Source of the DNA: Acrocarpospora corrugata
GTDB taxonomy: Bacteria > Actinomycetota > Actinomycetes > Streptosporangiales > Streptosporangiaceae
Direction of reading: 5' to 3'
NCBI RefSeq assembly: GCF_009687845.1
Contig: NZ_BLAD01000090.1
Coordinates: 1-56,613 of the forward strand
DNA length: 56,613 nt
Part shown: in pieces, positions 2,383 to 24,505 of the stretch
Layout: each line of letters begins with the position of its first letter
Position numbering within the stretch: the first letter of the stretch is position 1
Position numbers and translations under genes: made by a program
Notes under the pieces: model-generated
What the model saw: only the letters and a program-made list of their open reading frames with translations
The model's database searches: none
Told to the model about the DNA's origin: nothing

Positions 2383-3975
<1,593 letters not shown>

Positions 3976-4153: not shown

Positions 4154-4978
4154 TCAGGAATGTACGCCGTAGTCCGCCGCGAATTTGCTCAGCGCGGTCA
4201 ACGCGTCACGGGTGCCTTTCCACGGGCGGACGATCATGCGGTCTACGCCAAGAGTGGTCCAGGAGGGGATTTCTTCCGGGGTCGTCAGCGAATAGGCGTG
4301 GACGGTGATGGAGAAGTCTGGCGGGAGATCGGTGAGGCGAGCCAGATGGGGACGAATCGTGGCGAGGGAGTGCGGCATGCTGATCCAGCCGTCGCAGCGT
4401 TGGGCGGCGCGCCGGAGGGCGGCGGGGGATTCGCCGCCGGCCAGGATCGGAAGCCGGGCCTGGATGGGTTTGGGTTCGAAGGCGACTTCGGGGAAGTCGT
4501 AGAAGCGGCCTGAGTGGGCGATGACCGGTTCCGTCCAGAGGCGGCGGGCGATGTCGATGGATTCGTCGAGGCGGGGGCCGCGGGTGGCGAAGTCAAGGCC
4601 GGCGGCCAGCCACTCGCCCTCGTACCAGCCCGCGCCGACACCGCAGATCGCGCGACCGCCGGAAACGACATCCAAAGTGGCGAAGGCGCGAGCGGACACG
4701 AATGGATGCCGCAGGGCGAACAGGTGCACGGCGGTGCCGAGACGAATCCGGCGGGTGAGCCCGGCGAGCCAACATAAATAAGCGGGAGCGTCGAACAGCG
4801 GCGTCGTAGGCGAAATACCCGGCTTCTCGGTGCCGGGATAAACCGCCAGCGACAGGTCCGTGGCGAACACAAGGTGCTCAGGCAGCCAGAGCGACTCGAA
4901 CCCCAGCTCGTCAGCCGCGACCGCGACATCCGGCCAGGCCGCGGGGTGCAGCAGTCCAAGGGGAACACCGAACTTCAT
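4154..4978 (-). CDS. LLM-class F420-dependent oxidoreductase
   Basis: 274 residues of luciferase-like (beta/alpha)8 fold. It opens MKFGVPLGLL, followed by LGFESLWLPEHL, RIRLGTAVHLFALRHP and VSGGRAICGVGAGW, the strand and loop signatures of the TIGR03619-like F420 subgroup. Such enzymes transfer hydride with F420 or use FMN; the substrate is not predictable. Its ATG overlaps the stop of the upstream acyl-CoA dehydrogenase in a TGATG junction (4976-4980), so it is translationally coupled as last gene of a three-gene operon. That context suggests it acts on the same acyl-CoA-linked catabolic intermediate. Confidence 0.85.
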   Translation of the reverse strand: MKFGVPLGLLHPAAWPDVAVAADELGFESLWLPEHLVFATDLSLAVYPGTEKPGISPTTPLFDAPAYLCWLAGLTRRIRLGTAVHLFALRHPFVSARAFATLDVVSGGRAICGVGAGWYEGEWLAAGLDFATRGPRLDESIDIARRLWTEPVIAHSGRFYDFPEVAFEPKPIQARLPILAGGESPAALRRAAQRCDGWISMPHSLATIRPHLARLTDLPPDFSITVHAYSLTTPEEIPSWTTLGVDRMIVRPWKGTRDALTALSKFAADYGVHS

Positions 4979-6033
4979 CAGGGATGCCGACGGAGTTCCG
5001 GGTCGCCGAGAATCGCGGCGCGCAGGCGGGCTCGATGCAGGGCGGTGTCGCCGTAAGCGGAGGTGAGCGACCAGACGCGGGCAAGCCAGAGGCGAAGGTC
5101 GAGTTCCTCGGTGTAGCCGATCGCACCGTGCACCTGGAGAGCGGCTCGGGCCGCCAGAGCGGCGGCTTCGCCCGCAGCGGCCTTGGCGGCGCTGACGGCG
5201 CGGAGAATATCGGCTTCGCCTGCGGCCTTGGCGGCGCGGAGGTTGTCGGTTTCGCCCTGGCCGTCGGAGATGGCGACGGCGGCCGCGTAGACGTGAGGGG
5301 CGGCGAAGTCGATGGCGATAGCCACGTCGGCCAGTTGGTGTTTGACGGCTTGGAAGGAGCCGATGGGCGCACCGAACTGGGTGCGGGTCTTCGCATGGGC
5401 GACCGAGGCTTCCAGCAGGTGCCGGGCCAGGCCGATGAGCTGCGCGGCGACCGCGACGGTGGCGGCTCTCAGGACGGGTACGGCTTGCGCCCGCGACCGC
5501 ACCCCATCCCCCCGCGAAGAATCCCCCCGCGACGCTTTCGCGGCCACGCTGAACAGCCGGCGCACCGGATCCACCCCAGGCTGCGGCGTAAGCCGTACCT
5601 CATCGGACGACAGCACATGAATGGCACCGTCATGCTCGACGATGAGCAGATCGGCCAAGTCCGCGTCGGGCGCGTAAACCTGGTCTCCCAGCCGGACGGA
5701 GACCCGAAGCGACCCCTTGACCAGCCGGTCCTGCAGGTCATCCGGCAGCAGGCCGGGCGCGATCACCGCCGTCTCGACCACCGGCCCAGGCAGCGCGGCC
5801 CGCCCGGCTTCCTCGAAGGCGAGAATCGTGTCGGCGAGCCGCAGCCCCAGCCCGTCATGACGTTCCGCGACCAACATGCCGAACATCCCTATTCGCGCCA
5901 GCTGCGGCCATCCCGGGAGCCGCTCCCCGGTCCGGCCCGCCTCCCGTACGGCCCGAGCCGGACAGTGCTCGGCCAGCACCTGCCTGACGGTCGACCCGAG
6001 AACCAACTGGTCGTCGGTGAACGCAAAGTCCAT
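4978..6033 (-). CDS. Acyl-CoA dehydrogenase, short FadE type (second subunit)
   Basis: 351 residues beginning MDFAFTDDQLVLGSTVRQVL, a standard acyl-CoA dehydrogenase N-terminus, with LGLRLADTILAFEEAGRAALPGPVVETAVIAP (quoted as landmarks around residues 55-88), and a C-terminal domain with KTRTQFGAPIGSFQAVKH and LQVHGAIGYTEELDL. Length and divergence from its partner fit the alpha2beta2 FadE heterodimers of steroid catabolism, where two unlike subunits are encoded side by side. It is the middle gene of the operon, 71 nt after the first dehydrogenase and coupled to the LLM gene. FAD-dependent alpha,beta-desaturation of an acyl-CoA is expected. Heterodimer formation is inference from pairing. 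Confidence 0.85.
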   Translation of the reverse strand: MDFAFTDDQLVLGSTVRQVLAEHCPARAVREAGRTGERLPGWPQLARIGMFGMLVAERHDGLGLRLADTILAFEEAGRAALPGPVVETAVIAPGLLPDDLQDRLVKGSLRVSVRLGDQVYAPDADLADLLIVEHDGAIHVLSSDEVRLTPQPGVDPVRRLFSVAAKASRGDSSRGDGVRSRAQAVPVLRAATVAVAAQLIGLARHLLEASVAHAKTRTQFGAPIGSFQAVKHQLADVAIAIDFAAPHVYAAAVAISDGQGETDNLRAAKAAGEADILRAVSAAKAAAGEAAALAARAALQVHGAIGYTEELDLRLWLARVWSLTSAYGDTALHRARLRAAILGDPELRRHP

Positions 6034-6104: not shown

Positions 6105-7238
6105 TCATCTCGGTAGGCCGAGCACCCGCTCGGCGATGATGGTCCGCTGGATCTCGTTGGTGCCCGCGTAGATGGGCCCGGCCAGGGAGAACAGGTACCC
6201 GTGCAGCCACGCGCCGCTGTCGGGCGCGTCCGGGGCGGCGGCGTCGAGCAGGCCGCGTTCGCCCAGTAACCGCAGGGCCAGGGTGTGCATCCGGACGTCG
6301 AGTTCGGACCAGAAGACCTTGCCCATGCTGGCAGCTGGCCCGAGGTCGGCCCCGGCGGCGACGGCGTGGTAGGTGTGCAGCCGGTAGGCCTCCGCGTCCA
6401 GCCACGCGCGGGCGATCTCGTCGGCGAGCACGGGGTCGGGGTCGAGGGTGCGGGCGAGCCGGACCAGCCGGTCGGCGGTGGCCATGAAGCGGCCGGGGCT
6501 GCGCAGGGTGAGGCCGCGTTCCGAGGAGGTGGTGGCCATGGCGATCCGCCAGCCTTCGCCGGGGGCGCCGAGGACCTGGTCGTCGGGGACGAAGACGCCG
6601 TCGAGGAAGAGTTCGGCGAAGCCGTGCCTGCCGTCGAGCTGGGCGATCGGGCGGACGTCGACCTGGTCGAGCGGGAACAGGAAGTAGGTGAGGCCGTGGT
6701 GCCGGGTGGCGGCGGGGTCGGAGCGGAACAGGCCGAAGGCCCAGTCGGCGTAGCTCGCTCGGGAGCTCCAGGTTTTCTGGCCGTGCAGCCGCCAGCCGCC
6801 GTCGACGCGTTCGGCGCGGGCGCGTACGGAGGCGAGGTCGCTGCCCGCCTCGGGTTCTGACCAGGCTTGCGCCCAGATGTCGTCGCCGCACGCCATCCGG
6901 GGCAGGAACCGGTCCTGCTGGGCGGTGGTGCCATGCGCGAAGAGGGCGGGGGCGAGCAGGAAGATGCCGTTCTGCCCGAGCCGGGCGGGCGCGCCCGCGG
7001 CCCAGTACTCCTCTTCGAAGATGAGCCATTCGATCAGGCTGGCGGCGCGTCCGCCGTAGCAGTGCGGCCAGGAGACGACCGAGAGGCGGGCGCCGGCGAG
7101 GCGGCGTTCCCAGTCGCGGTGGGCGGCGAAGCCGCCGGCGGTGTCCATGGACGGCAGCCGCGCGGGGACGTGTTCGGCCAGCCAGCCGCGTACGTAGGCG
7201 CGGAAGTCCTGCTCGGCTCGGGTGAACTCCAGATTCAC
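6105..7238 (-). CDS. Acyl-CoA dehydrogenase (FadE type, first subunit)
   Basis: 377 residues, GTG start giving MNLEFTRAEQDFRAYVRGWL. It has the middle-domain pattern WAQAWSEPEAGSDLASVRARA, the flavin-region YADWAFGLFRSD, and C-terminal YAGTNEIQRTIIAERVLGLP typical of the family. FAD-dependent desaturation of an acyl-CoA with an electron-transfer flavoprotein as acceptor is expected. It leads the operon dehydrogenase-dehydrogenase-LLM. Its start lies 24 bp from a KstR2-like palindrome shared with the divergent alcohol dehydrogenase. Substrate unknown; pairing with the adjacent unlike dehydrogenase is typical of actinobacterial steroid or branched side-chain degradation. Confidence 0.9.
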   Translation of the reverse strand: MNLEFTRAEQDFRAYVRGWLAEHVPARLPSMDTAGGFAAHRDWERRLAGARLSVVSWPHCYGGRAASLIEWLIFEEEYWAAGAPARLGQNGIFLLAPALFAHGTTAQQDRFLPRMACGDDIWAQAWSEPEAGSDLASVRARAERVDGGWRLHGQKTWSSRASYADWAFGLFRSDPAATRHHGLTYFLFPLDQVDVRPIAQLDGRHGFAELFLDGVFVPDDQVLGAPGEGWRIAMATTSSERGLTLRSPGRFMATADRLVRLARTLDPDPVLADEIARAWLDAEAYRLHTYHAVAAGADLGPAASMGKVFWSELDVRMHTLALRLLGERGLLDAAAPDAPDSGAWLHGYLFSLAGPIYAGTNEIQRTIIAERVLGLPR

Positions 7239-7261: not shown

Positions 7262-7275
7262 AGCAACCGCTTGCT
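7262..7275. promoter_or_regulatory. KstR2-like operator in divergent promoter
   Basis: AGCAACCGCTTGCT differs at one position from the published KstR2 consensus AnCAAGnnCTTGnT. It sits between the divergent acyl-CoA dehydrogenase and alcohol dehydrogenase genes. Its right half overlaps the probable -35 of the rightward promoter, which would suit repression. A sister site is at 15510-15523. Confidence 0.6.
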
Positions 7276-7299
7276 TAAATCAAGCCGGCTCGCTACCGT
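7271..7299 (+). promoter_or_regulatory. Probable sigma70-type promoter of the alcohol dehydrogenase gene
   Basis: TTGCTT at 7271-7276 and TACCGT at 7294-7299 are separated by 17 bp, placing the transcript start near 7306 and the ATG at 7338. The -35 element is part of the palindrome described at 7262-7275. Confidence 0.4.
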
Positions 7300-7337
7300 G
7301 CGCCCAAGAGCAGGTGCCTCCCGGAGGGAACCACCGG

Positions 7338-8495
7338 ATGCTGATGCGGGCTGCCGTACTGACCGACTTCAAGGCCCCCATGGAGATCCTCGAAGTCGAG
7401 ATCGCCGAGCCGGGCCCCGGCGAGGTCCGCGTCAAGATCGCCGCCTCCGGCGTGTGCGGCTCCGACCTGAAGGCCATCGACGGCAAGAGCCCCGTGGTAC
7501 GGCAGCCGCCCTACGTCCTCGGCCACGAGAGCGCCGGCGTGGTGGAGAGCGTCGGCCCCGGCGTGACCACCGTCAGGCCGGGCGACCACGTGATCGTCGC
7601 CATGAACGGCCCCTGCGGCCGCTGCCGCAACTGCGGCCGGGGCAATCCGCACCTCTGCGCGGGCCCCGCCCGCCTGGCCGCCATCATGGGCACCCGGCCC
7701 GACGGCAGCACCCGCCTCACCGTGAACGGCACTCCCACGCGCACGTTCATCGGCATCGGCTCCTTCGCCGAATACGTCGTCGTGAACGAACCCATGTGCG
7801 TGAAGATCGCGAAGAACGCGCCGATGGACGTGCTGTGCCTGCTCGCCTGCGGCGTCGTCACCGGCGTCGGCGCGGTGCTCAACGTCGCCAGGGTCGAGCC
7901 CGGCTCCACCGTCCTGGTCGTCGGCTGCGGCGGCGTCGGCCTGAACGTCATCCAGGGCGCGGTCCTGGCCGGCGCGACCACGATCATCGCGGCCGACATC
8001 GCCACCGCCAAACTCCGCCTGGCCGAGAACTTCGGGGCCACCCACACCCTGCTCATCGGCACCACGACCGAGCAGATCGACGTCGAGGCCACGCCGACGG
8101 CTCCCTCGATCGAGGACCTGGCCGCCCAGGTCGGCTCGATCGTGCGCGGCGGCGTCGACTACGCGTTCGACGTGACCGGCGTCCCCGGCGTCCTGGCCGC
8201 CGCCTTCGCCGCCACCCAGCCCGGCGGCGGCACGGTCATGGTCGGCAGCCCCCCGCAGGGCCGGCCGATCACCATCGAGCCCGGCCAGCTGTTCGCCTCG
8301 CGCCGGCTCATGGGCACCCAGGGCGGCGACGCGGCCCCCCTCCGCGACCTGCCGATGCTGGTCGACCAGTACCTGCTCGGCCGCCTCGACCTGGACGGCC
8401 TGATCAGCGAACGCCTCCCGCTTGAGCGCATCAATGAGGCCGTGGACCATATCCGCCGGGGCACTGTCGCCCGCAGCGTCATCGTCTTCGATTAA
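7338..8495 (+). CDS. Zinc-dependent medium-chain alcohol dehydrogenase
   Basis: 385 residues. The catalytic zinc region has CGSDLKAIDG (around residue 38) and GHESAGVVESVGPGV; the structural zinc ligands form CGRCRNCGRGNPHLC near residues 95-109. The Rossmann motif GCGGVGLNV is followed by an aspartate (AADIATAKL), favouring NAD(H). Family III of zinc dehydrogenases, acting on primary or secondary alcohols or mycothiol adducts. ATG 7338 is preceded by GGAGGG at 7323-7328; a second ATG at 7344 is possible. It is divergent from the acyl-CoA dehydrogenase operon and shares the KstR2-like operator region, so it is probably co-regulated. Likely oxidises an alcohol intermediate of the same pathway. 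Confidence 0.92.
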   Translation: MLMRAAVLTDFKAPMEILEVEIAEPGPGEVRVKIAASGVCGSDLKAIDGKSPVVRQPPYVLGHESAGVVESVGPGVTTVRPGDHVIVAMNGPCGRCRNCGRGNPHLCAGPARLAAIMGTRPDGSTRLTVNGTPTRTFIGIGSFAEYVVVNEPMCVKIAKNAPMDVLCLLACGVVTGVGAVLNVARVEPGSTVLVVGCGGVGLNVIQGAVLAGATTIIAADIATAKLRLAENFGATHTLLIGTTTEQIDVEATPTAPSIEDLAAQVGSIVRGGVDYAFDVTGVPGVLAAAFAATQPGGGTVMVGSPPQGRPITIEPGQLFASRRLMGTQGGDAAPLRDLPMLVDQYLLGRLDLDGLISERLPLERINEAVDHIRRGTVARSVIVFD

Positions 8496-8656
8496 TCACG
8501 GCTATTAATCCGATACGCACCTACATGACCCGCGTGACACGAAGAATCGCGCAATAACTTCTCGTATCAGCCCGGTACGGCTCTTCGACTAGACGTCCGA
8601 CCCGTTGTTACGCTCCGTAGTCGTGCGAGTGTGCACCGAGATCGGGGGATTTCTAG

Positions 8657-10345
8657 ATGATCATTACTCGGAGGGGTCGGCGTTCATTTTTGCCGGTATT
8701 GCTTGGGTGCCTGCTCGTAGGGCTGGCAGTCGGCCTGGTGATGCCGGCGTCAGCCTCCCGGGAGGCGCAGTTGACGGTGCGCGTCACCGACAACAGGACC
8801 TACGTGGCCCCCTCCGCCACAGTGAACTACACGGTCACCGTCATCAACGAAGGAGGCGAGGAAGCCGGCTCCATCGAAGCCGGGATTGAGCTCGGCGCCG
8901 GACTGACCGTCGTGTCGGCCTCGGACGGCGGCACCGCCAGCGGCGCCACCGCGAAGTGGCCCGACTTCGCACTCGCCGGCGGCGCACAGCGGGTCTTCCG
9001 GGTGGTCGCCCGGGTGCCCGACCAGGCCGCTCCGGGCAACCGGTACGAGTCGAAGGCCACCGCCACCGACGACGGGACCATCGCGGAGGCCACCGACGAG
9101 AGCTTCGTCGGCGCGGCCCAGTTGAACGTGCGCAAGACCGACGGCGTGCAGGAGGCACTCCGCGGCGACACGCTCACCTACAAGATCACGGTGGGCAACC
9201 CGGGCACCCTGCCGATCGCCCAGGTCAACCTGGTCGACTCGGCCGGCAACGGGCTGGAGTTCGAGTCGGCGAACCGGGGCGGCTCCTGGAACCAGGGGCA
9301 CCGCCAGATCACCTGGCCGGGCTTCGAACTCGCGGCCGGCGCGGAAGAGGTGTTCACGGTGACCGCCAAGGTGCCGTCCGACGCCAAGTCCGGCCAGGTG
9401 CTGCGTAACTCGGCGAGCGTGACCGCGCCGGGGCTGAGCGACCAGGCCATCGACGAGACGCTGGTGACGGTGGCTACCGGCCTGGCGCTGAGCAAGAGCG
9501 ACGACCGCACCGACGCCAAGCCGGGCGAGGTGCTGACCTACACCATCACCGTCCGCAACACCGGCGAGACGGACCACTCCTCGGTCTCGCTGGTGGACCG
9601 CTTCGGCGACCGGCTGGAGTACGTCTCCCTCTCCCCCACCGACGGCTCCTACGCCGACCGCGAGATCAGGTGGCCCGACTTCCCGCTGAAGTCCGGCGAG
9701 CGCCGGGTGTTCTCGGTGGTGGCCCGGGTGCTGAAGACCGGTGAGACCGATCTGATCAGGAACGAGGTGATCGCCACCACGTCCGACCGCCGGATCGCCC
9801 GCGCCGAGGATGTGACCGGCCTGATCCTGCCTCCGCCGCCGCGGATCGCCCCGCCGCCCAGCCCCAGCCCCTCGCCGTCACCGACGCCGTCACCGACGCC
9901 GCCGGCCTTCGTGCCGCCGACGACCCCGCCCACGACCCCGCCGACCACCCCGCCGACCACGCCCACCCCGCCGCCCGTCCCGCCGATCGTCGTGACCCCG
10001 CCCCCGGCGCCGGCGCCGGAGATCGACCGTGGCGAAGGCGAGACTGAGACGGGCTGGCCCGGCAACCGAACTCCCGGAGGAGACATCGACCGCGACTGGT
10101 GTCGCGACCGGCCGTGCGTGCACCACCCGCGCGACCACCACATCCACCATCCCTGCGACGACGACCACGACTGTGACCACCCGGACGTCATCGAGGAGCC
10201 TCCGCACGACTGGGGCGACCTGGCCCGGCGGGTGCTGCCGTACACCGGCGCGGTCATGTTCCCGGTCCTCGGCGCGGGCGTGCTCCTGCTCTCCCTGGGC
10301 GGCGGCATCCTGCTGATCACCCGCCGCCGGCGTCGCCGGATCTGA
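8657..10345 (+). CDS. DUF11-repeat surface protein with LPYTG sortase signal
   Basis: 562 residues. A signal peptide (RRGRRSFLPVLLGCLLVG, cleavage after about PASAS) is followed by three DUF11-type beta-sandwich repeats at about 36-150, 152-272 and 273-390, each with a TYTITV-like core and a WPDF motif. A Pro/Thr stalk (about 395-460) leads to a His/Asp/Cys-rich segment (about 478-520) with four cysteines and at least eight histidines. The C-terminus carries LPYTG at 527-531, a hydrophobic span and an RRRRRR tail: a complete cell-wall sorting signal. ATG 8657 has GGGGGA 7 nt upstream. Likely a wall-anchored adhesin or envelope protein; the histidine-rich patch may bind metal. No sortase gene is in this window. 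Confidence 0.88.
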   Translation: MIITRRGRRSFLPVLLGCLLVGLAVGLVMPASASREAQLTVRVTDNRTYVAPSATVNYTVTVINEGGEEAGSIEAGIELGAGLTVVSASDGGTASGATAKWPDFALAGGAQRVFRVVARVPDQAAPGNRYESKATATDDGTIAEATDESFVGAAQLNVRKTDGVQEALRGDTLTYKITVGNPGTLPIAQVNLVDSAGNGLEFESANRGGSWNQGHRQITWPGFELAAGAEEVFTVTAKVPSDAKSGQVLRNSASVTAPGLSDQAIDETLVTVATGLALSKSDDRTDAKPGEVLTYTITVRNTGETDHSSVSLVDRFGDRLEYVSLSPTDGSYADREIRWPDFPLKSGERRVFSVVARVLKTGETDLIRNEVIATTSDRRIARAEDVTGLILPPPPRIAPPPSPSPSPSPTPSPTPPAFVPPTTPPTTPPTTPPTTPTPPPVPPIVVTPPPAPAPEIDRGEGETETGWPGNRTPGGDIDRDWCRDRPCVHHPRDHHIHHPCDDDHDCDHPDVIEEPPHDWGDLARRVLPYTGAVMFPVLGAGVLLLSLGGGILLITRRRRRRI

Positions 10346-10374
10346 GAACCCAAGGAAACCGAACGAGATACGGT

Positions 10375-10411
10375 CGAAGAGCTCCCGGAAACCCGGGAGC
10401 TCTTCGCTTTT
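10375..10411 (+). terminator. Rho-independent terminator
   Basis: A perfect 14-bp stem (10375-10388 with 10393-10406), AAAC loop and a CTTTT tail lie 30 nt after the DUF11 gene. Confidence 0.9.
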
Positions 10412-10458
10412 CCCCCTGGTCACCGCCGCTTCGGCCATCTACGATTCCTAGGCCCGCT

Positions 10459-10498
10459 GGGTGAACGTTCAACCGGATCGCGGCGTCACTTCTGTGAC
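10459..10498. promoter_or_regulatory. Two inverted repeats upstream of the LuxR gene
   Basis: GGGTGAACGTTCAACC (10459-10474) is a 14/16 palindrome with a perfect TGAACGTTCA core. GTCAC-TTCT-GTGAC (10485-10498) is a perfect inverted repeat. Both lie just ahead of the regulator coding region and are candidate operators; the bound protein is unknown. Confidence 0.35.
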
Positions 10499-10516
10499 AC
10501 GCGTGAAAGGGGGTGA

Positions 10517-13186
10517 CGTCAGGTCGACAGGGTCAACGGAAGCCGGGCCCGGCTCGTCGACGAGCTGGCGTCGGTCATCCGCGACACGCCGAAGACGGTC
10601 CTCATCGTCGGTGCGGCCGGCATCGGCAAGACCCATCTCCTGGGCGAGGTGACCGCCAGGGCGACGGGTTTCCGCGTGCTGCGCGGACGGGCCCGCGAGT
10701 TGGACGAAGGTCTGGCGTACGCGCCGCTGGTGGACGCGATCGAGTCGCTCGGCCGCGACAAACGCTCCCAGACCGGCCTGTGGGAGCTCTACGACGCGAT
10801 CGACCGCGCCGCGCTCGGCCATCCCGCCAAGAAGGCCCCAGGCAACCCGGTGGCCGCCCCCGCCGTGCTCGCCGCCCAGCTGCTGGAGTCGCTGCCCGGC
10901 CGCACCCTGCTGGCCATCGACGACATCCACCACGCCGACGCCGACACCCTCCGCCTGCTGACCGCGCTCCCCCGCAGCGCCCCCAGCCTGGCCATCCTCT
11001 GCACGGCCAGGCACGTCCCCGCCCTCGACGTCGACCAGACCGTCCGGCTGGAGCCGCTCACCCGCCAGGAGGTGAGCGCCCTGATCACCTCGCTGCTGGA
11101 CCGCACGCCCAGCGACAACATGATCGACCGGGTGCACCGGGAGAGCGGCGGCAACCCGTGGTTCGTCCGGGAGTCGGTGCTGGCCCTGGTCCAGGGCGGC
11201 GCGGTCCGCTCCCCCGACCCGGACGCCCGGCGCGGCGCGATCCTGTCCCGGGTCTTCCAGCGCGACCGGGCCGGCCGCGACCTGGCCCGGGTGCTGGCCA
11301 CGCTGGGCCGGACCCGCGACACCACCGCGATCGACACCCCCGGCACCCTGGAGGCCGTCGCCCAGGTGGCCGGTCTGGACGCCCGCGCGGGCGAGCGCGC
11401 CCTGGTCGGCCTGGTCCGCGACGGCGTGCTGGTCTACACCGGCGACGGGTACGCCTTCGCCCACCCGCTGGTCGCCGAGGCTCTCTACGACGACCTGAAC
11501 GCGGGCGAACGCCGCCGCCTGCACGCCCGCATCGCCGAGCTGCTGCAGCGGCAGGGCCTGAACGGCGCGCGCCGGGTGCTGGAGTGGGCCACCCACCTGG
11601 CCGAGGGCGGCCCGCCCGCCGACGCGCTGGCCGCGATGCTGCGCGCCGCCGAGCTGACCCGCTGGACCGCGCCGCTGTCGGCCGCGCACTGGTACGGCCG
11701 CGCCGCCGAGGTGGCCGACAGCGTGCCCGACGCGGCCGGGCGGCGCGGCGACCTGCTGGCCCGCCAGTCGCTGTGCTACTGGAAGGGCTCCCGCCCGGCG
11801 CTGGCCCTCAACTCCGGGCAGCGCGCACTGGCGGTGCTGCCGCCGGGGCGCCGGCACACCAGGACCGCGTACACGGTGGTGGGCGCGGCGCACGCGATGG
11901 GCTGGTACGACGTGGGCCTGACCATCGCCGCCCAGCAGATCCCGCGCGCCGACGACCCGACCGCGCTGGTCGCCCAGCGCGCCCTGCTGCTGGCCGAACT
12001 GGGCCGCCCGCTCGGCGACCATGTGGCCCGCGCCTGGGACGGCCTGCCCGGCTGCCCGCCGGAGGACCGGATCATCACCGCGGGCTGCCTGGCCCTGCGC
12101 GCGTTGATCGACGGCGACTGGGCGGAGGCGCAGCGCGCCGTCGACGACCTGCTCGGCTTCGCCGCCGCGCTGCCGCCGGGGGCCAGGCTGGCCGCGCTGG
12201 AGTCGGCCGCGCACGTGATGAGCACCGGCGGGCTGCGGACCCGTTCTGCCGCCCTGCTGGAGCAGGCCGAGCAGATCCACCGCGGCCTGGGCTGGCACGA
12301 CATCGCCGGGCAGAACGTCCGGGTGACCGCGGTGGTGCGGCGGCTGGCCGGGGAGTGGGACCGCGCGCTCACCGGCATCAGGGCGGGCGCGGGCCCGCTC
12401 GCCGAGGCCGGCCTGCTGGAGAACCACGGCCTGCTGCGCAACATCGAACTGGACATCCTGCTGGACCAGGGCCGGTACGAGGAGGCGGCCGCCGTGCTGG
12501 ACGATCCGCCGCCGGACTGCGCCACCCAGACCGGGCTGCGGCACACCTTCCGGGCCAGGCTCGCCCTCGGCCTGGGCGACCGGGCGGCGGCGCGGGCCTG
12601 GGTGGATCGGGCGCTGGCGACCGGGATCGCCGACGTGGCGCACCGGGCGCTGACCGTCCAGGTGCTGATCCACGCGGCGGCCCGGGACCGTGAAGGCGGG
12701 AAGCTGGCCGCCACCCGGCTGGACGAGCGGAGCGCGACCGGCACCCCGCGGGCCAGGATGGCCGCCGACCTGGCCATGGGCTGGGCCTTCGAGGACACCG
12801 ACCGGGCCGGGGCCGCGCTGGACCGGGCCCGCGCCGACGGGCTGCCGTTCGAGGAGGCCAGGGCCCGGCTGGTGCTGGGCACGATCGGCGACCACGCCCA
12901 GCTGAGCCGGGCCCACAACGCGTTCAACGCGCTCGGCGCGATCCCGTGGCGAGAGCGCGCCGCCATGCTGATGCGCGAGGCGGGCCTGGCCCCGGCGGGC
13001 GCGCTGACCCCGGCCGAACGCCGCGTGATCGAACTGGTCGCCGGCGGCCTGAGCAACCCGCAGATCGCCGACGAACTCCACTACAGCCGCAAGACCGTCG
13101 AGGTCTACCTGACCCGCGTCTACGCCAAAACCGGCTTCAAATCCCGGGTAGAACTGGCGCTAGCGGTCGAGCGCGGAGAGCTGTGA
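10517..13186 (+). CDS. LuxR-family transcriptional regulator with AAA/NACHT-like ATPase (LAL type)
   Basis: The reading frame is open from 10517, after an in-frame TGA at 10514, to 13186: 889 codons. Walker A (GAAGIGKTHL, near residue 33) and Walker B (LLAIDDIHHAD) mark the N-terminal ATPase; a long alpha-helical TPR-like region follows; the C-terminus is a LuxR/GerE helix-turn-helix (LTPAERRVIELVAGGLSNPQ through SRKTVEVYLTRVYAKTGFKS). This is the MalT/LAL architecture: a large ATP-binding transcription activator. The start is a problem: no ATG, GTG or TTG occurs in frame before GTG 10649, which would cut off the P-loop; only CTG 10565 precedes it. The given start is therefore only the first open codon. 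It probably controls nearby catabolic or exported genes. Confidence 0.8.
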   Translation, partial: RQVDRVNGSRARLVDELASVIRDTPKTVLIVGAAGIGKTHLLGEVTARATGFRVLRGRARELDEGLAYAPLVDAIESLGRDKRSQTGLWELYDAIDRAALGHPAKKAPGNPVAAPAVLAAQLLESLPGRTLLAIDDIHHADADTLRLLTALPRSAPSLAILCTARHVPALDVDQTVRLEPLTRQEVSALITSLLDRTPSDNMIDRVHRESGGNPWFVRESVLALVQGGAVRSPDPDARRGAILSRVFQRDRAGRDLARVLATLGRTRDTTAIDTPGTLEAVAQVAGLDARAGERALVGLVRDGVLVYTGDGYAFAHPLVAEALYDDLNAGERRRLHARIAELLQRQGLNGARRVLEWATHLAEGGPPADALAAMLRAAELTRWTAPLSAAHWYGRAAEVADSVPDAAGRRGDLLARQSLCYWKGSRPALALNSGQRALAVLPPGRRHTRTAYTVVGAAHAMGWYDVGLTIAAQQIPRADDPTALVAQRALLLAELGRPLGDHVARAWDGLPGCPPEDRIITAGCLALRALIDGDWAEAQRAVDDLLGFAAALPPGARLAALESAAHVMSTGGLRTRSAALLEQAEQIHRGLGWHDIAGQNVRVTAVVRRLAGEWDRALTGIRAGAGPLAEAGLLENHGLLRNIELDILLDQGRYEEAAAVLDDPPPDCATQTGLRHTFRARLALGLGDRAAARAWVDRALATGIADVAHRALTVQVLIHAAARDREGGKLAATRLDERSATGTPRARMAADLAMGWAFEDTDRAGAALDRARADGLPFEEARARLVLGTIGDHAQLSRAHNAFNALGAIPWRERAAMLMREAGLAPAGALTPAERRVIELVAGGLSNPQIADELHYSRKTVEVYLTRVYAKTGFKSRVELALAVERGEL

Positions 13187-13211
13187 CATTGGCCGCGCCT
13201 CCGGCACGGCG

Positions 13212-13303
13212 AGCTCGGCCGCTCCTTAGCCTGTGTCTTCCCTCGTCTCTCCGGCCGCTCCGCGACCTGCGTTCCTCAGTCCAGACACAGGCGCGGCCGA
13301 GCT
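13212..13303. repeat. Long interrupted inverted repeat after the LuxR gene
   Basis: AGCTCGGCCGC (13212-13222) and GCCTGTGTCT (13229-13238) pair with AGACACAGGC (13283-13292) and GCGGCCGAGCT (13293-13303): 21 bp of stem with a 6-nt bulge and a 44-nt loop. It lies in the 170-bp gap before the metallo-beta-lactamase gene. It may be a terminator of the LuxR transcript or a 5' leader structure; no strong T-run follows. Confidence 0.5.
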
Positions 13304-13356
13304 TTAGGGATCTCCCTACTGGGCCCGGCGGGGGCCGGAGCGACAGGATTCTCGGC

Positions 13357-14682
13357 ATGGGGATCCTGGAGTATGCCGACAAGGTGTGGCGAGGCTCGGT
13401 GCAGGCCTACGAGGTGCCGCTCGCCGACTTACGCGCCGGCGGCGCCCAGGAGGTCGCCGAGGGTGTGGCCATGTGGCCCGCGTTCGGCAACGTGTACGCC
13501 ATCCGGGGGGAAGCCGGTCTAGCACTTTTCGACACAGGTAACGCGGTGGACGCCCCGGCCATGCACCGGGCCGTACGTTCCTGGTCGGACGAGCCGGTCC
13601 GGTACGCGATTTTCTCGCACGGGCACTTCGACCATGTGGGGGGAATGGAGTGTTTCGACGAGGAGGAGGGGTCACGGCCGGTCGTCGTCGCGCACGAGGG
13701 CGTGGCGAATAGGTTCGCCCGATATGCCAGGACCGCCGGGTACAACTCGGTGATCAACCAACGGCAGTTCGGGTTCGCCCAGATGCACTGGCCGGCGACG
13801 TATCGCGTACCGGACCTGACCTACCAGGAGCGGCTCACCCTCTCGCTCGGCGACGTCACCTTCGAGCTGCGCCACGCGCGCGGCGAGACCGATGACGCCA
13901 CCTGGGCGTTCGTCCCCGAGCACGGCATCCTGCTGACCGGTGACCTGTTCGTCTGGGTGACGCCCAGCGCCGGGAACCCGCAGCGGGTGCAGCGCTACCC
14001 GGACGAGTGGGCGGTCGCGCTCCGGACGATGGCCACCCTGGACGCGGAGCTGCTGCTCCCCGGCCACGGGCTGCCCATCTCCGGGTCGATCAGGGTTCGG
14101 CGCGCCCTGGTCGACACGGCCGACTACCTGGACAGTCTGGTCGAGCAGACGCTGGACCTGATGAACGCGGGCGCTCGCCTGGACGAGATCCTGCACACCG
14201 TCAAACCACCCCTGGAGCTGTCGCAGCGGCCCTATCTGCAGCCGTACTACGACGAGCCCGAGTTCATCGTGCGGAATATCTGGCGGCTCCACGGGGGCTG
14301 GCACGATGGCAACCCGGCCAACCTGAAACCCGCGCCGGACGCGGTGTTCGCGCGCGCGATCGCCGAACTGTCGGCCGGAGCGGGCCCGGTGGCCGGGCGG
14401 GCGGTGGTGGCCGCGGCGGAGGGCGATCTCCGGCTCGCCTGCCAACTGGCCGAACTGGCGGTGCAGGCGGAGCCGGACGACCACAAGATCCACGAGATCC
14501 GGGCCAGGGTGTACGCGCTGCGGGTGCAGGAGGAGCCGGGGGCGATGGCCCGGGGGGTGTACGCCTGGGCGGCGGCCGAGTCCCGGAGCAAGGTCACCGG
14601 GAGTGACCTGCTGGACGTCTACCACGAGGTGACCGACGGGCGGATGTGGTGGATCCCGGCGGGCACCGCGGACCGGAACTGA
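13357..14682 (+). CDS. Metallo-beta-lactamase-fold hydrolase with alkyl-sulfatase-like dimerisation domain
   Basis: 441 residues. The metal-binding motif SHGHFDH gives His88, His90, Asp92 and His93; further MBL motifs are LLTGDLFVW and LLLPGHGLPI. The second half (about 285-410, including WRLHGGWHDGNPANLKP and a helical repeat LACQLAELAVQAEPDDHKIHEIRARVY) matches the alkyl-sulfatase dimerisation domain of SdsA1-like enzymes. The SCP2-like C-terminal domain of full SdsA1 (over 600 residues) is missing, so this is the short form. It may hydrolyse alkyl or sterol sulfate esters, or another ester; function beyond hydrolase is inference. The ATG at 13357 starts at the conserved N-terminus. It ends head-to-head with the next gene with no spacer. 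Confidence 0.85.
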   Translation: MGILEYADKVWRGSVQAYEVPLADLRAGGAQEVAEGVAMWPAFGNVYAIRGEAGLALFDTGNAVDAPAMHRAVRSWSDEPVRYAIFSHGHFDHVGGMECFDEEEGSRPVVVAHEGVANRFARYARTAGYNSVINQRQFGFAQMHWPATYRVPDLTYQERLTLSLGDVTFELRHARGETDDATWAFVPEHGILLTGDLFVWVTPSAGNPQRVQRYPDEWAVALRTMATLDAELLLPGHGLPISGSIRVRRALVDTADYLDSLVEQTLDLMNAGARLDEILHTVKPPLELSQRPYLQPYYDEPEFIVRNIWRLHGGWHDGNPANLKPAPDAVFARAIAELSAGAGPVAGRAVVAAAEGDLRLACQLAELAVQAEPDDHKIHEIRARVYALRVQEEPGAMARGVYAWAAAESRSKVTGSDLLDVYHEVTDGRMWWIPAGTADRN

Positions 14683-15498
14683 TCACAGGTATCGGGCGTA
14701 GTCGTCGAGAGTGGCCCGCACGTCGCGGTCGGCCGGGACGTGCAGGATGACCTCCTCGATGCCTAGGCTCGCGAAATACTCCAGTTTCCCCGGGTCTGGG
14801 TAGGAGCCGAAGGGGATCACGGAGGCGATTGGCCGTCCCCGCTCGGCACACGCCTCGGCCAGAGCGGGGAGGGCCTTGCCGACGCCTTTGCCGCCGAACG
14901 GCATCCAGCCGTCGGCGTACTCGGCGATCTGGGCGAAGAGTCCCGGGCCGGCCGCGCCGCCCAGGTAGATCGGCACCCGGCCGACCGGCTTCGGCCAGGA
15001 CCAGGACGGCTCGAAGGCGACGTGCGCGCCGTCGAAGCCGGCCTCGTCCCGCTCCCAGAGCGCCCGCATGGCCAGCACGTGCTCGCGGCCGACTGCCCGG
15101 CGGTCGGCGAACGGCACGCCGTGGTTCTCGATCTCCTCGACGTTCCAGCCGAAGCCGACGCCGAGGCTGACCCGGCCGCCGGACAGGTGGTCCAGGGTGG
15201 CGATCGCCTTGGCGGTCACGATGGGGTCCCGCTGGGCGGCCAGCAGGATGCCGGTGCCGAGGGTGATCCTGCTGGTGACGGCGGCGGCGAAGGAGAGGGC
15301 GACCAGCGGGTCGAGGGTGCGGCTGTAGTCCTCCGGGAGGGTCTGCTGTCCGGCGGCGGGGGGCGTGCGGCGGGAGACCGGGATATGGGTGTGCTCGGGG
15401 AGGTACAGCCCGGAGAACCCCCGGGCCTCGACTTCCCTGGCCAGTTCGGGGATGGGCGTGGTGAGGTCGGTCGCGAACGTCGTGACGGCCAGCCGCAA
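14683..15498 (-). CDS. LLM-class F420-dependent oxidoreductase
   Basis: 271 residues; TTG start giving MRLAVTTFATDL, with AGGAG 5 nt upstream. Fold landmarks are ARGFSGLYLPEHTHIPVS, RITLGTGILLAAQRDPI, LSGGRVSLGVGFGWNVEE and VPIYLGGAAGPGL, all typical of the TIGR03619-like F420 family. Reaction class: F420- or flavin-dependent redox, substrate unknown. It is divergent from an alpha/beta hydrolase, and the 75-bp gap holds a KstR2-like palindrome, tying it to the other catabolic genes. Its stop abuts the stop of the metallo-beta-lactamase gene on the other strand. Confidence 0.88.
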   Translation of the reverse strand: MRLAVTTFATDLTTPIPELAREVEARGFSGLYLPEHTHIPVSRRTPPAAGQQTLPEDYSRTLDPLVALSFAAAVTSRITLGTGILLAAQRDPIVTAKAIATLDHLSGGRVSLGVGFGWNVEEIENHGVPFADRRAVGREHVLAMRALWERDEAGFDGAHVAFEPSWSWPKPVGRVPIYLGGAAGPGLFAQIAEYADGWMPFGGKGVGKALPALAEACAERGRPIASVIPFGSYPDPGKLEYFASLGIEEVILHVPADRDVRATLDDYARYL

Positions 15499-15509
15499 AT
15501 CGACTCCTA

Positions 15510-15523
15510 AACAAGCGATTGCT
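15510..15523. promoter_or_regulatory. Second KstR2-like operator
   Basis: AACAAGCGATTGCT matches AnCAAGnnCTTGnT except at one position. It lies between the divergent LLM and alpha/beta hydrolase genes. As at 7262-7275, the right-hand TTGCT doubles as a possible -35 (TTGCTC 15519-15524, 18 bp, TAGCTT 15543-15548) for the rightward gene. The shared arrangement suggests one repressor for both promoters. Confidence 0.55.
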
Positions 15524-15573
15524 CGGTTACCGGTTCCTAGGATAGCTTGCTCGCGAGAGGACGGGAGGGCTTC

Positions 15574-16368
15574 GTGGGGTTCGCGGATCTCGGCGACGTG
15601 CGGCTATTCCACACCGACGACGGCGAAGGCGACGGTGCGCTGCTGCTCGTGCACGGCTGGGGCTCCGACTCGCACGAGTGGATCCACCATATCCCCGCAC
15701 TACGCGCCCGGCATCGGGTGATCGCGGTGGATCTGCGCGGCCACGGGCACTCCTCGATCCCCGAAGCAGGGAACACCCCACAGCGGATGGCGGACGATCT
15801 CGCCCGGCTCTGCGCGGCCCTCGGGGTGCCCCGGGTGATCGCGGTCGGGCACTCGATGGGCGGCCAGGTGGTGTCCCATCTCGCCGTCGAACGGCCGGAA
15901 CTGGTCGCGGGGCTGGTCACCATCGATCCGGGGTACGGATTCGACGGGCCCGTGGCGGACGGCTTCCCTGCGCTCATGGCGGCGCTCCGCGACGGGGACA
16001 CGCACGCGACCGCCGTACAGATGGATCAGTGGACGTACACGCCCGCCTCGCCCGGGTGGCTGCGGGAGTGGCATCGGCGGCGGATCCTGGCCACGCCGCC
16101 GCACGTGCTCGCCGAGGCGTTCTCGGCCATGTTCGGCCCGGACGGGATCGGGGTCCGGCCCCGGTCGGACGAGTATCTGGCCCGGCGGGAGTGCCCGGTG
16201 CTCGGGTTCTGGTTCGACCCGGCCAAAGCGGCCTGGGAGCGCGGCCTGTTCAAGGAGCCGAGGTCGCGGACCGTGCTCTGGGAGGGCAGCGGGCACCGGC
16301 TGCACGAGGAACGGCCCGGGGAGTTCCTGCTCGTCGTCAATAAATGGGTGAAAGAGGTCATGCGGTGA
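15574..16368 (+). CDS. Alpha/beta-fold hydrolase
   Basis: 264 residues. The oxyanion region LLLVHGWGSDSHEW, the segment VIAVDLRGHGHS, the nucleophile elbow GHSMGG (Ser about 96) and a late histidine in GSGHRLHEERP define the fold. GTG 15574 is chosen over the TTG at 15547 because GGGAGG lies 5 nt upstream. The stop overlaps the start of the next LLM gene (GTGA), so hydrolase, LLM and LLM form one operon. Candidate roles are C-C hydrolase, esterase or lactonase of the pathway; meta-cleavage-product hydrolases have a similar layout, but nothing here is specific. Confidence 0.88.
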   Translation: MGFADLGDVRLFHTDDGEGDGALLLVHGWGSDSHEWIHHIPALRARHRVIAVDLRGHGHSSIPEAGNTPQRMADDLARLCAALGVPRVIAVGHSMGGQVVSHLAVERPELVAGLVTIDPGYGFDGPVADGFPALMAALRDGDTHATAVQMDQWTYTPASPGWLREWHRRRILATPPHVLAEAFSAMFGPDGIGVRPRSDEYLARRECPVLGFWFDPAKAAWERGLFKEPRSRTVLWEGSGHRLHEERPGEFLLVVNKWVKEVMR

Positions 16369-17615
16369 AGTTTTCGATCATGCTCAATCCGCAGATCCCG
16401 GGGTCCGGGTACAGCCAGGAGGCGAACGCGGTGGCGCGGCGGCCGATCGGCCGGGACACCGAGTCGTACCAGAGGCTGCTGGACGAGGTGCGCGAGATCG
16501 CGGTGCACGCGGACCGGCTCGGGTTCGACGCGCTGATGATGACCGAGCACCACTTCCACTCCGAGGGCTTCGAGTTCTCGGTCAACCCGCTGATGTTCCT
16601 GACCGACCTGGCCGCCAGGACCGAACGCATCCTGCTCGCGCCGCTCGGCCTGGTGTTGCCGGCCTGGGATCCCATCCGGGCGGCCGAGGATGTGGCGCTG
16701 CTCGACCAGTTCTGCAAGGGGCGCCTCCGGCTGGGGGTGGCGCGGGGTTACCAGAACCGGTGGATGAACGTGCTCGGGCAGCGCTGGAAGGCGTCGGCGG
16801 CCCGGTCGGACGGCTCCTCCGCCGACAACCGGAACTTCGACGTGTTCGGCGAGGTCCTGCACATCATGAAGATGGCCTGGACGCAGGAGACCCTCCGCTA
16901 CAAGTCCGACGTCATCGACTACGAGGTGCCCTCGCCGTACGAGGGGATCGAGGGCTGGCCCGCGCAGGAGTGGACCAAGACCTTCGGCGCGCCCGGCGAG
17001 CTGGACGCGGACGGCAGGATCCAGGCGGTGTCGGTCTGCCCGCGGCCCTACCAGAATCCGTATCCGGAGCTCTGGCAGCCGTTCACGATCTCCGACCGGT
17101 CGGTGCTGCGGGCCGCGCAGGAGGACATCCTGCCGTGGATGTTCACCCCGAACCCCGATGAGCACGCCGCCAAGGCCCGGCTCTACCAGGAGGAGTCCGC
17201 CAAGTGCGGGCGGGACTACAAGCTGGGCGAGCACACCGGCATCCTGAAGATCGTCGGCATGGCCGACACCCGCGAGGAGGCCATCGCCACCTACGGCAAG
17301 GCCATGGCGAAGGACTTCGCGGCCTTCTTCGGGCCGTTCGGCTATCTGGAAGTGCTCCGCCAGAAAGAGGACGATCGCAAAAAGCCAATTTCTCCGGAAA
17401 AGGGCGACTACAAGCGGATGAACGAGGTCGAGATGGCCCTGCTCGGCGGGCCCGACGACGTCAAGCGCGGTATTCAGCGGCTACTCGACCGGATGCCCGA
17501 CCTGGAATGGTTCGGCCTGTTCATGCAGGGTCAGCAGGGCGTGCTCCCCCTCGACACGGTCAAACGGAACCTGGAGCTGTTCGCCACCAAGGTCATCCCG
17601 GAATTCGCGGACTGA
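16365..17615 (+). CDS. LLM-class flavin-dependent oxidoreductase, long form
   Basis: 416 residues starting at GTG 16365, within the GTGA overlap, with AAAGAGG 7 nt upstream. Landmarks are LGFDALMMTEHHFHSEGF, LLAPLGLVLPAWDPIRAAED, GRLRLGVARGYQNRW and a C-terminal LFMQGQQGVLPLDTVKRNL. The TEHHF motif and greater length place it with bacterial-luciferase/alkanal-monooxygenase-like FMN enzymes rather than the short F420 group. It probably works with O2 and a reductase as a monooxygenase. It is central in a three-gene operon with the hydrolase and a further LLM protein, both joined by overlapping stop-start codons. Confidence 0.88.
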   Translation: MKFSIMLNPQIPGSGYSQEANAVARRPIGRDTESYQRLLDEVREIAVHADRLGFDALMMTEHHFHSEGFEFSVNPLMFLTDLAARTERILLAPLGLVLPAWDPIRAAEDVALLDQFCKGRLRLGVARGYQNRWMNVLGQRWKASAARSDGSSADNRNFDVFGEVLHIMKMAWTQETLRYKSDVIDYEVPSPYEGIEGWPAQEWTKTFGAPGELDADGRIQAVSVCPRPYQNPYPELWQPFTISDRSVLRAAQEDILPWMFTPNPDEHAAKARLYQEESAKCGRDYKLGEHTGILKIVGMADTREEAIATYGKAMAKDFAAFFGPFGYLEVLRQKEDDRKKPISPEKGDYKRMNEVEMALLGGPDDVKRGIQRLLDRMPDLEWFGLFMQGQQGVLPLDTVKRNLELFATKVIPEFAD

Positions 17616-18481
17616 TGGAATTCTGGCTGGGCGCGTCCTTCACGGACACGGGCGAGTTCCTGGAGCTCGCCCGCGCGTCAGAACGCTGCGGGATCCACAC
17701 CCTCACCCTCTCCGACCACATCTTCTACACCGACTTCGCCACCCCGTACCCGTACGGCCGGATGCGCTGGACCGAGACGACCCACTGGCCCGACCCCTGG
17801 GTGACCATCGGCGCCATGTCGGCCGTCACCACCACCCTGCGCTTCGCCCCGAACGTCTACGTGGCCCCGGCCCGAGACCTGTTCACCGTCGCCAAACAGG
17901 TCTCCACAGCCGCCGTGCTCTCCGGCGACCGGGTCACCTTCGGCGTCGGCGTCGGCTGGTGCGCCGAGGAGTTTGCCCAGACCGGGCAGGACTTCCACAC
18001 TCGGGGGAAACGCCTGGACGAGATGATTCCGGTGCTCCGCGATCTGTGGGGCGGCGGCCGGGTCGAACACCACGGCCGGTTCTACGACTTCGCCCCGCTC
18101 TCGATCGCCCCGACCCCCGCCGCCCCGATCCCCGTCTACATCGGCGGCGACAGCGACGCGGCCCTGCGCCGCGCGGCCCGGCTGGGCGACGGCTGGGTCG
18201 GCAACCGGATCTACACCGAAGCCCAGCTGGACGAGGTCCTCGGCCGCCTGAGCGGCTACCTCAAGGAGGAGTCCAGGGGCCCGATCGAGATCGTCGCCCC
18301 GCTCGCCGTCATGCCCGACGCCTCGGTCTACCGCCGTTTCGCCGACAAGGGGGTCACCGGCACGTTCACCGCGCCCTGGTGGCTGGCCACGCCCGAGGAG
18401 AAGGCTCTCCACGGGGACGGCCTCGAACTCAAGCTCGCCACCATGGAGCGCTTCGCCGAGGAGATCATCGCCAAGATGTGA
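17615..18481 (+). CDS. LLM-class F420-dependent oxidoreductase
   Basis: 288 residues. The ATG at 17615 overlaps the previous stop as TGATG, so translation is coupled. Landmarks are MEFWLGASFTDTGEFLELA, LTLSDHIFYTDFATPYPYG, FAPNVYVAPARDLFTVAKQ, GDRVTFGVGVGWCAEEF and IPVYIGGDSDAALRRAARL, fitting the F420-dependent LLM group. It is the fourth LLM enzyme in 14 kb. It may be the hydride-transfer step following the monooxygenase-like gene before it. The gene ends 2 bp from the convergent GNAT gene. Confidence 0.88.
   Translation: MEFWLGASFTDTGEFLELARASERCGIHTLTLSDHIFYTDFATPYPYGRMRWTETTHWPDPWVTIGAMSAVTTTLRFAPNVYVAPARDLFTVAKQVSTAAVLSGDRVTFGVGVGWCAEEFAQTGQDFHTRGKRLDEMIPVLRDLWGGGRVEHHGRFYDFAPLSIAPTPAAPIPVYIGGDSDAALRRAARLGDGWVGNRIYTEAQLDEVLGRLSGYLKEESRGPIEIVAPLAVMPDASVYRRFADKGVTGTFTAPWWLATPEEKALHGDGLELKLATMERFAEEIIAKM

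Positions 18482-23342: not shown

Positions 23343-24505
<1,163 letters not shown>

Follow-up and report, generated by a model that had tools for sequence, protein, structure and literature searches.

KstR2 is a TetR-family repressor whose regulon has been described in mycobacteria and rhodococci. It is published as a set of 15 genes with three motifs in each genome, all of them close to kstR2, and the motif itself as AnCAAGnnCTTGnT (PMC3068626). In electrophoretic mobility shift assays (EMSA), M. tuberculosis KstR2 bound all three probes, one oligonucleotide of which contains ACCAAGCGCTTGCTCGG (PMC3068626), and HIP-CoA is the reported effector (PMC5380842). Here we describe two KstR2-like operators in a 56,613-nt stretch of the actinomycete Acrocarpospora corrugata (contig NZ_BLAD01000090.1 of assembly GCF_009687845.1, here C90; hereafter the window), which lie between genes for luciferase-like (LLM) oxidoreductases, an alcohol dehydrogenase (ADH), an alpha/beta hydrolase and two acyl-CoA dehydrogenases (FadEa and FadEb). 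Taken as a whole, the evidence is best explained if a KstR2-type repressor, whose gene lies on a different contig (C43), acts at both sites and the genes belong to a HIP-linked regulon, a reading that we consider very probable.

The system resembles the mycobacterial and rhodococcal one (PMC3068626, PMC5380842) in having a TetR protein whose DNA-binding region is closely similar, a 14-bp operator that is almost identical and stands in divergent promoters, a site at the repressor gene and HIP-type ring C/D genes, but differs in its 19 sites genome-wide, which also stand before LLM, ADH, hydrolase, PhyH, TauD and P450 genes. A large set is shared with Nocardioides simplex, for which KstR2 sites were predicted in 29 operons (PMC7807495), so that a wide KstR2 regulon is not new as such; the main text of that paper, the part covered by our comparison, does not contain the words luciferase or LLM. 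Rv3520c, a coenzyme F420-dependent oxidoreductase in a list of mycobacterial cholesterol genes (PMC6429209), is likewise an F420-type LLM near steroid genes, but of a different subfamily: LLM1, LLM2 and LLM4 of the window (Table 1) score 71, 76 and 32 bits on its model, against a cut-off of 335. A survey of steroid degraders names Thermomonospora, for which growth on cholate was shown, and its main text has no words starting with Streptosporang, Actinomadura, Nonomuraea or Planobispora (PMC4810484). Within the open-licence literature, as far as our searches reached it, we found no paper tying KstR2 to LLM oxidoreductases in the host family, nor a report of steroid or terpenoid breakdown in that family, which does not establish absence in print.

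Both operators are present in the window where a first-pass annotation, made from its sequence alone, had placed them, and each is one mismatch away from AnCAAGnnCTTGnT. The annotation also described their surroundings correctly. Operator 1 (AGCAACCGCTTGCT) lies in the divergent gap between the starts of FadEa (7238, minus strand) and ADH (7338, plus strand), and operator 2 (AACAAGCGATTGCT) in that between LLM2 (15498, minus strand) and the hydrolase (15574, plus strand); the genes facing them are of the kinds it had listed; and the right half of each palindrome doubles as a plausible -35 element of the rightward gene, although a strict sigma-70 consensus scan detected no promoter in either operator region. 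Its statement that no KstR2 homologue is encoded in the window likewise stands: a search with PF17932 gave six matches in the genome, none of them on C90, and the two TetR genes noted in the window differ from the KstR2 type in their C-terminal domains.

With one mismatch allowed, AnCAAGnnCTTGnT matches four places in the window, the remaining two at 23937 and 28329, compared with a shuffle mean of 0.38, and none of 100 shuffles reached four. The relaxed pattern ANCAANCGNTTGNT matches, without mismatches, exactly operators 1 and 2. Because this pattern was picked after both sites were known, the decisive tests are those outside the window.

We therefore turn to operator 2 in other genomes. LLM3 orthologues were sought in contigs of GTDB genomes, in which 98 stretches encode a relative; the best 80 of these loci, with LLM3 at 72-93% identity, were kept and represent, among other genera, Streptosporangium, Planobispora, Nonomuraea, Actinomadura, Actinoallomurus and Nocardiopsis. 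The 2 kb upstream of LLM3 contain an exact match to the operator pattern in 74/80 loci and a match with at most one mismatch in 75/80, whereas neither the reversed pattern in the same interval nor the operator pattern within 2 kb downstream occurs in any of the 80. The six loci without an exact match are L258, L281, L289, L282 (one mismatch), L285 and L286 (Nocardiopsis). At L258, L281 and L289, the LLM3 homologues (72-87% identical) stand in a different gene context, with no operator match within 2 kb upstream.

We aligned the 74 exact loci with the window (75 rows). As rows were selected by the pattern, no variation could appear at its ten fixed letters, and the information is carried by the four free positions: C (72 rows), G (75), A (75) and C (74). 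The three bases directly 3′ of the pattern are similarly constant (C 73, G 75, G 72), giving the consensus ACCAAGCGATTGCTCGG when they are included. The element ACCAAGCGCTTGCTCGG of the EMSA oligonucleotide is one base off the site 2 consensus. Apart from a TAGCTT-like box, the flanks are low in information. A -10-like TANNNT lies 17-18 bp after the TTG half in 72 of the 74 loci, compared with 6 of 1600 random positions; the predicted operator therefore overlays the rightward -35. In many Nonomuraea loci no hydrolase is called and the operator directly precedes LLM3, making LLM2, LLM3 and LLM4 the most constant part of this unit.

From operator 1, the start of FadEa is 23 bp away and that of ADH 62 bp. 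Upstream of ADH orthologues, the identical 14-mer occurs in G007 (L201) and variants occur in G031 (L100) and G047 (L115). Among the ADH promoters examined in LLM3 loci, 16/21 have a site, which is exact in 1 and has one mismatch in 15; the reversed control gives none. Of the FadEa orthologue loci retrieved, 8/20 have a site with no more than one mismatch ahead of the gene or of the operon that contains it. Operator 1 thus appears to be chiefly the operator of ADH, with the ADH side well supported and the FadE side moderately so.

Across the host assembly (9.27 Mb, 170 contigs), ANCAANCGNTTGNT occurs at 19 places, compared with 1 for the reversed pattern, and the strict published pattern at 11 places, compared with 4. 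Judged by reading the loci, with gene calls from our own codon model, 14 of the 19 sites (in 11 promoters) are matched by a site at the orthologous promoter of one or more other genera (Table 1). The other five (C46, C61, C82, C94 and C109) were set aside as likely chance, no conserved counterpart having been seen. Four of the 17 sites outside the window fall inside called genes (C46, C82, C94 and C70:82246); C70:82246 (L032 8247), in the first bases of a called LLM gene, was kept because relatives carry sites in the same promoter. The idea that C35:87932 is spurious, given its heparinase-like neighbour, was dropped because the corresponding position of G047 also carries a site (L176). In six relatives (G005, G007, G029, G031, G041 and G047), we counted 69 exact sites in all and inspected 57, of which 36 are, by reading, at promoters orthologous to host-genome sites.

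Operators at C70 and C43 likewise precede LLM genes or lie near them. A divergent unit of LLM and PhyH-phosphotriesterase-P450 genes (L032:7355-11230; also L179, L185, L196 and L207) has one or two exact operators in five genomes. An operator also lies just upstream of an Rv3169-family gene (L033:8139-9212; 452 bits, cut-off 150) in four genomes (L171, L184 and L198 as well), which hints at what this family does. The fused acyl-CoA dehydrogenase of C62 had no match at E 1e-40 in a structure-sequence search.

A TetR gene carrying the same site in its own promoter, which the first-pass annotation had proposed to look for by genome scan, is found on C43. This gene (C43:20628-21320; L025:8629-9324) encodes a KstR2 homologue with a PF17932 C-terminal domain over the cut-off. 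Its promoter holds an exact site at L025 8541 and a one-mismatch site at L025 8603, and its start is ~75 bp from a conserved operator. The best PDB matches of the C43 protein are 2ibd_A (181 bits) and the KstR2 entries 4w97/4w1u (174 bits). The predicted recognition helix AGILSGSLYHHF is common to the C43 protein and 2ibd, which we take to be KstR2 of R. jostii RHA1. When the host genome is searched with the C43 protein at E 1e-25, the only homologue is the protein itself.

Relatives also have a second KstR2-like gene, 39-47% identical to the C43 protein. In a 36-row tree, the C43 clade and 2ibd group together (support 95/97, including the G055 and G017 rows), apart from this second clade, with the root unsure because the outgroup branch is very long. 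At the eight loci where we observed the second lineage (L105, L107-L110 and L112-L114), it adjoins a fadA6-like thiolase and an SDR gene within HIP-type clusters. Its helix reads AG(M/I)L(G/A)GSLYYHF, and a variant operator such as AACAACTGTTTGGT (at most one mismatch) is found in 7/8 loci, with none at L112; helix and operator seem to change together in this lineage.

The number of sites follows the presence of the repressor across the host family. We split its 49 genomes by presence of a C43-type protein at 62% identity or more, counting as lacking it G016 (63% over part of the protein only) and five genomes with 47-58% matches. The 23 genomes with the repressor (host included) contain 179 sites (control 38), at 2-19 per genome, and the 26 without it contain 75 (control 43), at 0-28 per genome. 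This difference has a Mann-Whitney p of 2.8e-6 (4.5e-6 without the host genome) in a test that ignores genome size and relatedness.

Operators of the same class precede HIP-type genes in the host. Exact sites precede an ipdE2-like gene and the fadA6-like thiolase that accompanies kstR2, and echA20-ipdA-ipdB-ipdC is preceded by AGCAAGCGTTAGGT, with one mismatch, in both the host and G007; this 14-mer is also present in G047 beside another gene (L150). Furthermore, FadEa-FadEb orthologues lie within HIP-type clusters in several relatives. The HIP-type gene names rest on gene order and similarity: the ipdE2-like gene scores 220 bits on the IpdE2 model (cut-off 450), FadD3 501 bits (cut-off 657), the best model over cut-off for the fadA6-like thiolase is a general acetyl-CoA C-acetyltransferase, with the steroid thiolase model below cut-off, and IpdB matches no NCBIfam model. 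IpdC matches the FabK model below its cut-off, in agreement with a FabK note in a published table (PMC5380842). With the operators before HIP-type genes and the FadE orthologues in HIP-type clusters, the most fitting reading of the genes in the window is that they are detached members of a large KstR2-type regulon rather than a HIP-independent pathway. The first-pass annotation is thus borne out by the genome scan and by conservation in relatives as far as it proposed KstR2-like operators and a regulon with LLM, ADH and hydrolase genes, and the 19-to-1 excess answers the random frequency across the genome that it had named as refuting its reading. Its description of the pathway as unlike the known HIP pathway is unsupported as worded.

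For the classical aerobic 9,10-seco steroid pathway, the search covered HsaA and HsaD, neither of which was detected in the host. HsaA is over its cut-off in 3/16 genomes (G019, G031 and G041) and not in the host (best 231 bits, cut-off 450). HsaD is found at E <= 1e-40 in 4/16 genomes, not including the host, a weaker test than that for HsaA because HsaD is over its cut-off in 0/16 genomes. Of the classical sterol side-chain pathway, a CYP125-like P450 is present (L024:8290-9492), which scores 500 bits to CYP125MRCA and 367 to CYP125 chains and has an operator 37 bp upstream of its start. KstR is represented by below-cut-off homologues only, at least one in each of the 16 genomes tested; one KstR-like gene (G000:C42:172547-173089; 146 bits, cut-off 280) is ~10 kb from the operator-bearing CYP125-like gene. 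The substrate could be a classical steroid, if divergent enzymes act on rings A and B, or else a different polycyclic isoprenoid.

Several observations weigh against the C43 repressor as the regulator of these sites, or limit how far it can be taken. The 80 LLM3 loci belong to species that are related to one another and so do not count as 80 independent cases, genomes of the same genus (G001-G004) have no clear hydrolase orthologue, and neither window site has a -10 at the same spacing (16-19 bp) on its leftward side. The other 21 of the 57 inspected sites in relatives are not at promoters orthologous to host-genome sites. G008 and G009 have the repressor yet only 2 sites each. Conversely, G017 has 14 exact sites with a best repressor match of 43%, and G021 (89% complete) has 28 with no repressor match at 1e-25, numbers that another regulator or a repeat may explain. 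Finally, the second KstR2-like gene leaves doubt about the strict orthology of the C43 repressor. These last points would also fit operators that belong to another TetR paralogue with a similar recognition helix, the LLM genes then forming a separate pathway unlinked to HIP, and the operator variant of the second clade does indicate that related TetRs have related operators. That the C43 protein has no further homologue in the host at E 1e-25, that its gene has such sites in its own promoter and that site number tracks the C43-type repressor across the family make this alternative improbable. A chance origin of both palindromes in A+T-richer intergenic DNA might be entertained from the window alone, where AGCAANCGNTTGCT with up to two mismatches has three matches, a count equalled by 8/100 shuffles and so less telling. 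We reject it as practically negligible in view of the counts outside the window (19 vs 1 in the genome, 74/80 vs 0 in both LLM3 controls, 16/21 vs 0 at ADH promoters).

More doubt attaches to the leftward side of operator 1, which might control ADH only, with FadEa-FadEb-LLM1 as unregulated neighbours joined by rearrangement. In favour of this, the site goes with ADH in G031 and G007, where the FadEa promoter has none, a finding that also counts against joint control; in G047, ADH and FadEa are separated and a site accompanies each of them; and in the window the leftward side lacks the -10. However, operator 1 is only 23 bp from the FadEa start, Acrocarpospora atramentaria (L241) has the same divergent FadEa/ADH gap with two one-mismatch sites in it, and 8/20 FadEa orthologue loci have sites of their own. 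On balance we find control of ADH alone the less probable arrangement, though a serious contender.

Under the preferred reading, regulation by the C43 repressor, we infer binding, repression, effector, enzyme roles and substrate from features read in the sequence, namely the conserved sites, the arrangement of -35 and -10 elements, and a repressor with the recognition helix described above. The C43 protein, as a dimer, would bind the 14-bp palindromes and cover the -35 of the rightward promoter, that of ADH at site 1 and that of hydrolase-LLM3-LLM4 at site 2. The leftward gene would probably be blocked too at LLM2 and, less surely, at FadEa-FadEb-LLM1. Release would follow binding of the CoA thioester of an intermediate from late ring degradation, either HIP-CoA itself or a close analogue. 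The genes then derepressed would encode three F420-type LLMs, one probably FMN-type LLM, ADH, the hydrolase and a two-subunit acyl-CoA dehydrogenase, enzymes that may work in the polycyclic-isoprenoid degradation also served by the HIP-type genes with this operator class.

Features of the window and conserved operator sites of the host genome are collected in Table 1. By family model, LLM1, LLM2 and LLM4 are predicted to be F420-type, each passing the TIGR03619 cut-off; LLM3, at 72.1 bits, is below it and is probably FMN-type. The AlphaFold model of LLM3 (mean pLDDT 42.9) is too poor for use. The model scan of FadEb was made on a shorter piece (4978-5886). A metallo-beta-lactamase/alkyl-sulfatase-dimerisation gene (window 13357-14682) stays beside LLM2 or the hydrolase in some relatives (L217, L222, L278 and L283). 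Window positions 2464-2940 encode a stretch 62% identical to part of a 726-aa CHAP-domain protein of the orthologous cluster in L100.

Table 1. Operators, promoter-like elements and genes of the window, and conserved operator sites in the host genome (window positions unless a contig is given)
Feature	Position	Strand	Basis or neighbouring genes
Operator 1, AGCAACCGCTTGCT	7262..7275	.	sequence match and conservation at ADH orthologue promoters
Promoter-like TTGCTT-17-TACCGT	7271..7299	+	-35 (TTGCTT 7271-7276) overlaps operator 1; missed by strict consensus scan
Operator 2, AACAAGCGATTGCT	15510..15523	.	exact pattern upstream of LLM3 in 74/80 loci
Promoter-like TTGCTC-18-TAGCTT	15519..15548	+	-35 (TTGCTC 15519-15524) overlaps operator 2; missed by strict consensus scan
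LLM1, TIGR03619 F420-type LLM oxidoreductase	4154..4978	-	197.1 bits, cut-off 166.9
FadEb, acyl-CoA dehydrogenase, small-subunit type	4978..6033	-	IpdE2 model 89 bits, below cut-off
FadEa, acyl-CoA dehydrogenase, large-subunit type	6105..7238	-	pimC_large 177 bits, below cut-off
ADH, zinc-type (MDR) alcohol dehydrogenase	7338..8495	+	NCBIfam NDMA-dependent ADH subfamily 285 bits, below cut-off of 440
LLM2, TIGR03619 F420-type LLM oxidoreductase	14683..15498	-	241.9 bits, cut-off 166.9
Alpha/beta hydrolase (ABH)	15574..16368	+	Pfam Abhydrolase_1
LLM3, luciferase-like, long (416 aa)	16365..17615	+	PF00296; no NCBIfam model above cut-off
LLM4, TIGR03619 F420-type LLM oxidoreductase	17615..18481	+	201.2 bits, cut-off 166.9
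Conserved site	C35:87932		heparinase-like region
Conserved site	C42		P450
Conserved site	C43		kstR2/thiolase
Conserved sites, two	C43		flavin reductase/lipid-transfer thiolase
Conserved site	C43		ipdE2-like
Conserved site	C57		TauD
Conserved sites, two	C62		enoyl-CoA hydratase/FadD-ChsH2-thiolases
Conserved sites, two	C70		LLM/PhyH-PTE-P450
Conserved site	C81		Rv3169 family
Conserved sites, two	C90		window promoters (operators 1 and 2)

Together, these findings give orphan LLM oxidoreductases, which belong to a large class with mostly uncharacterised members, a defined regulator and hence a testable inducer and pathway. A bolder reading, which we consider less likely than not, is that in actinomycetes of the Streptosporangium, Nonomuraea and Actinomadura type a KstR2-type repressor may run a large regulon in which F420- and FMN-type LLMs, together with ADH and the hydrolase, would degrade a polycyclic isoprenoid without HsaA or HsaD, still ending in HIP-type ring opening by IpdABC. 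The operator itself yields a list of candidates, including P450, PhyH, TauD, Rv3169-family and LLM genes, for steroid or terpenoid breakdown in the host family.

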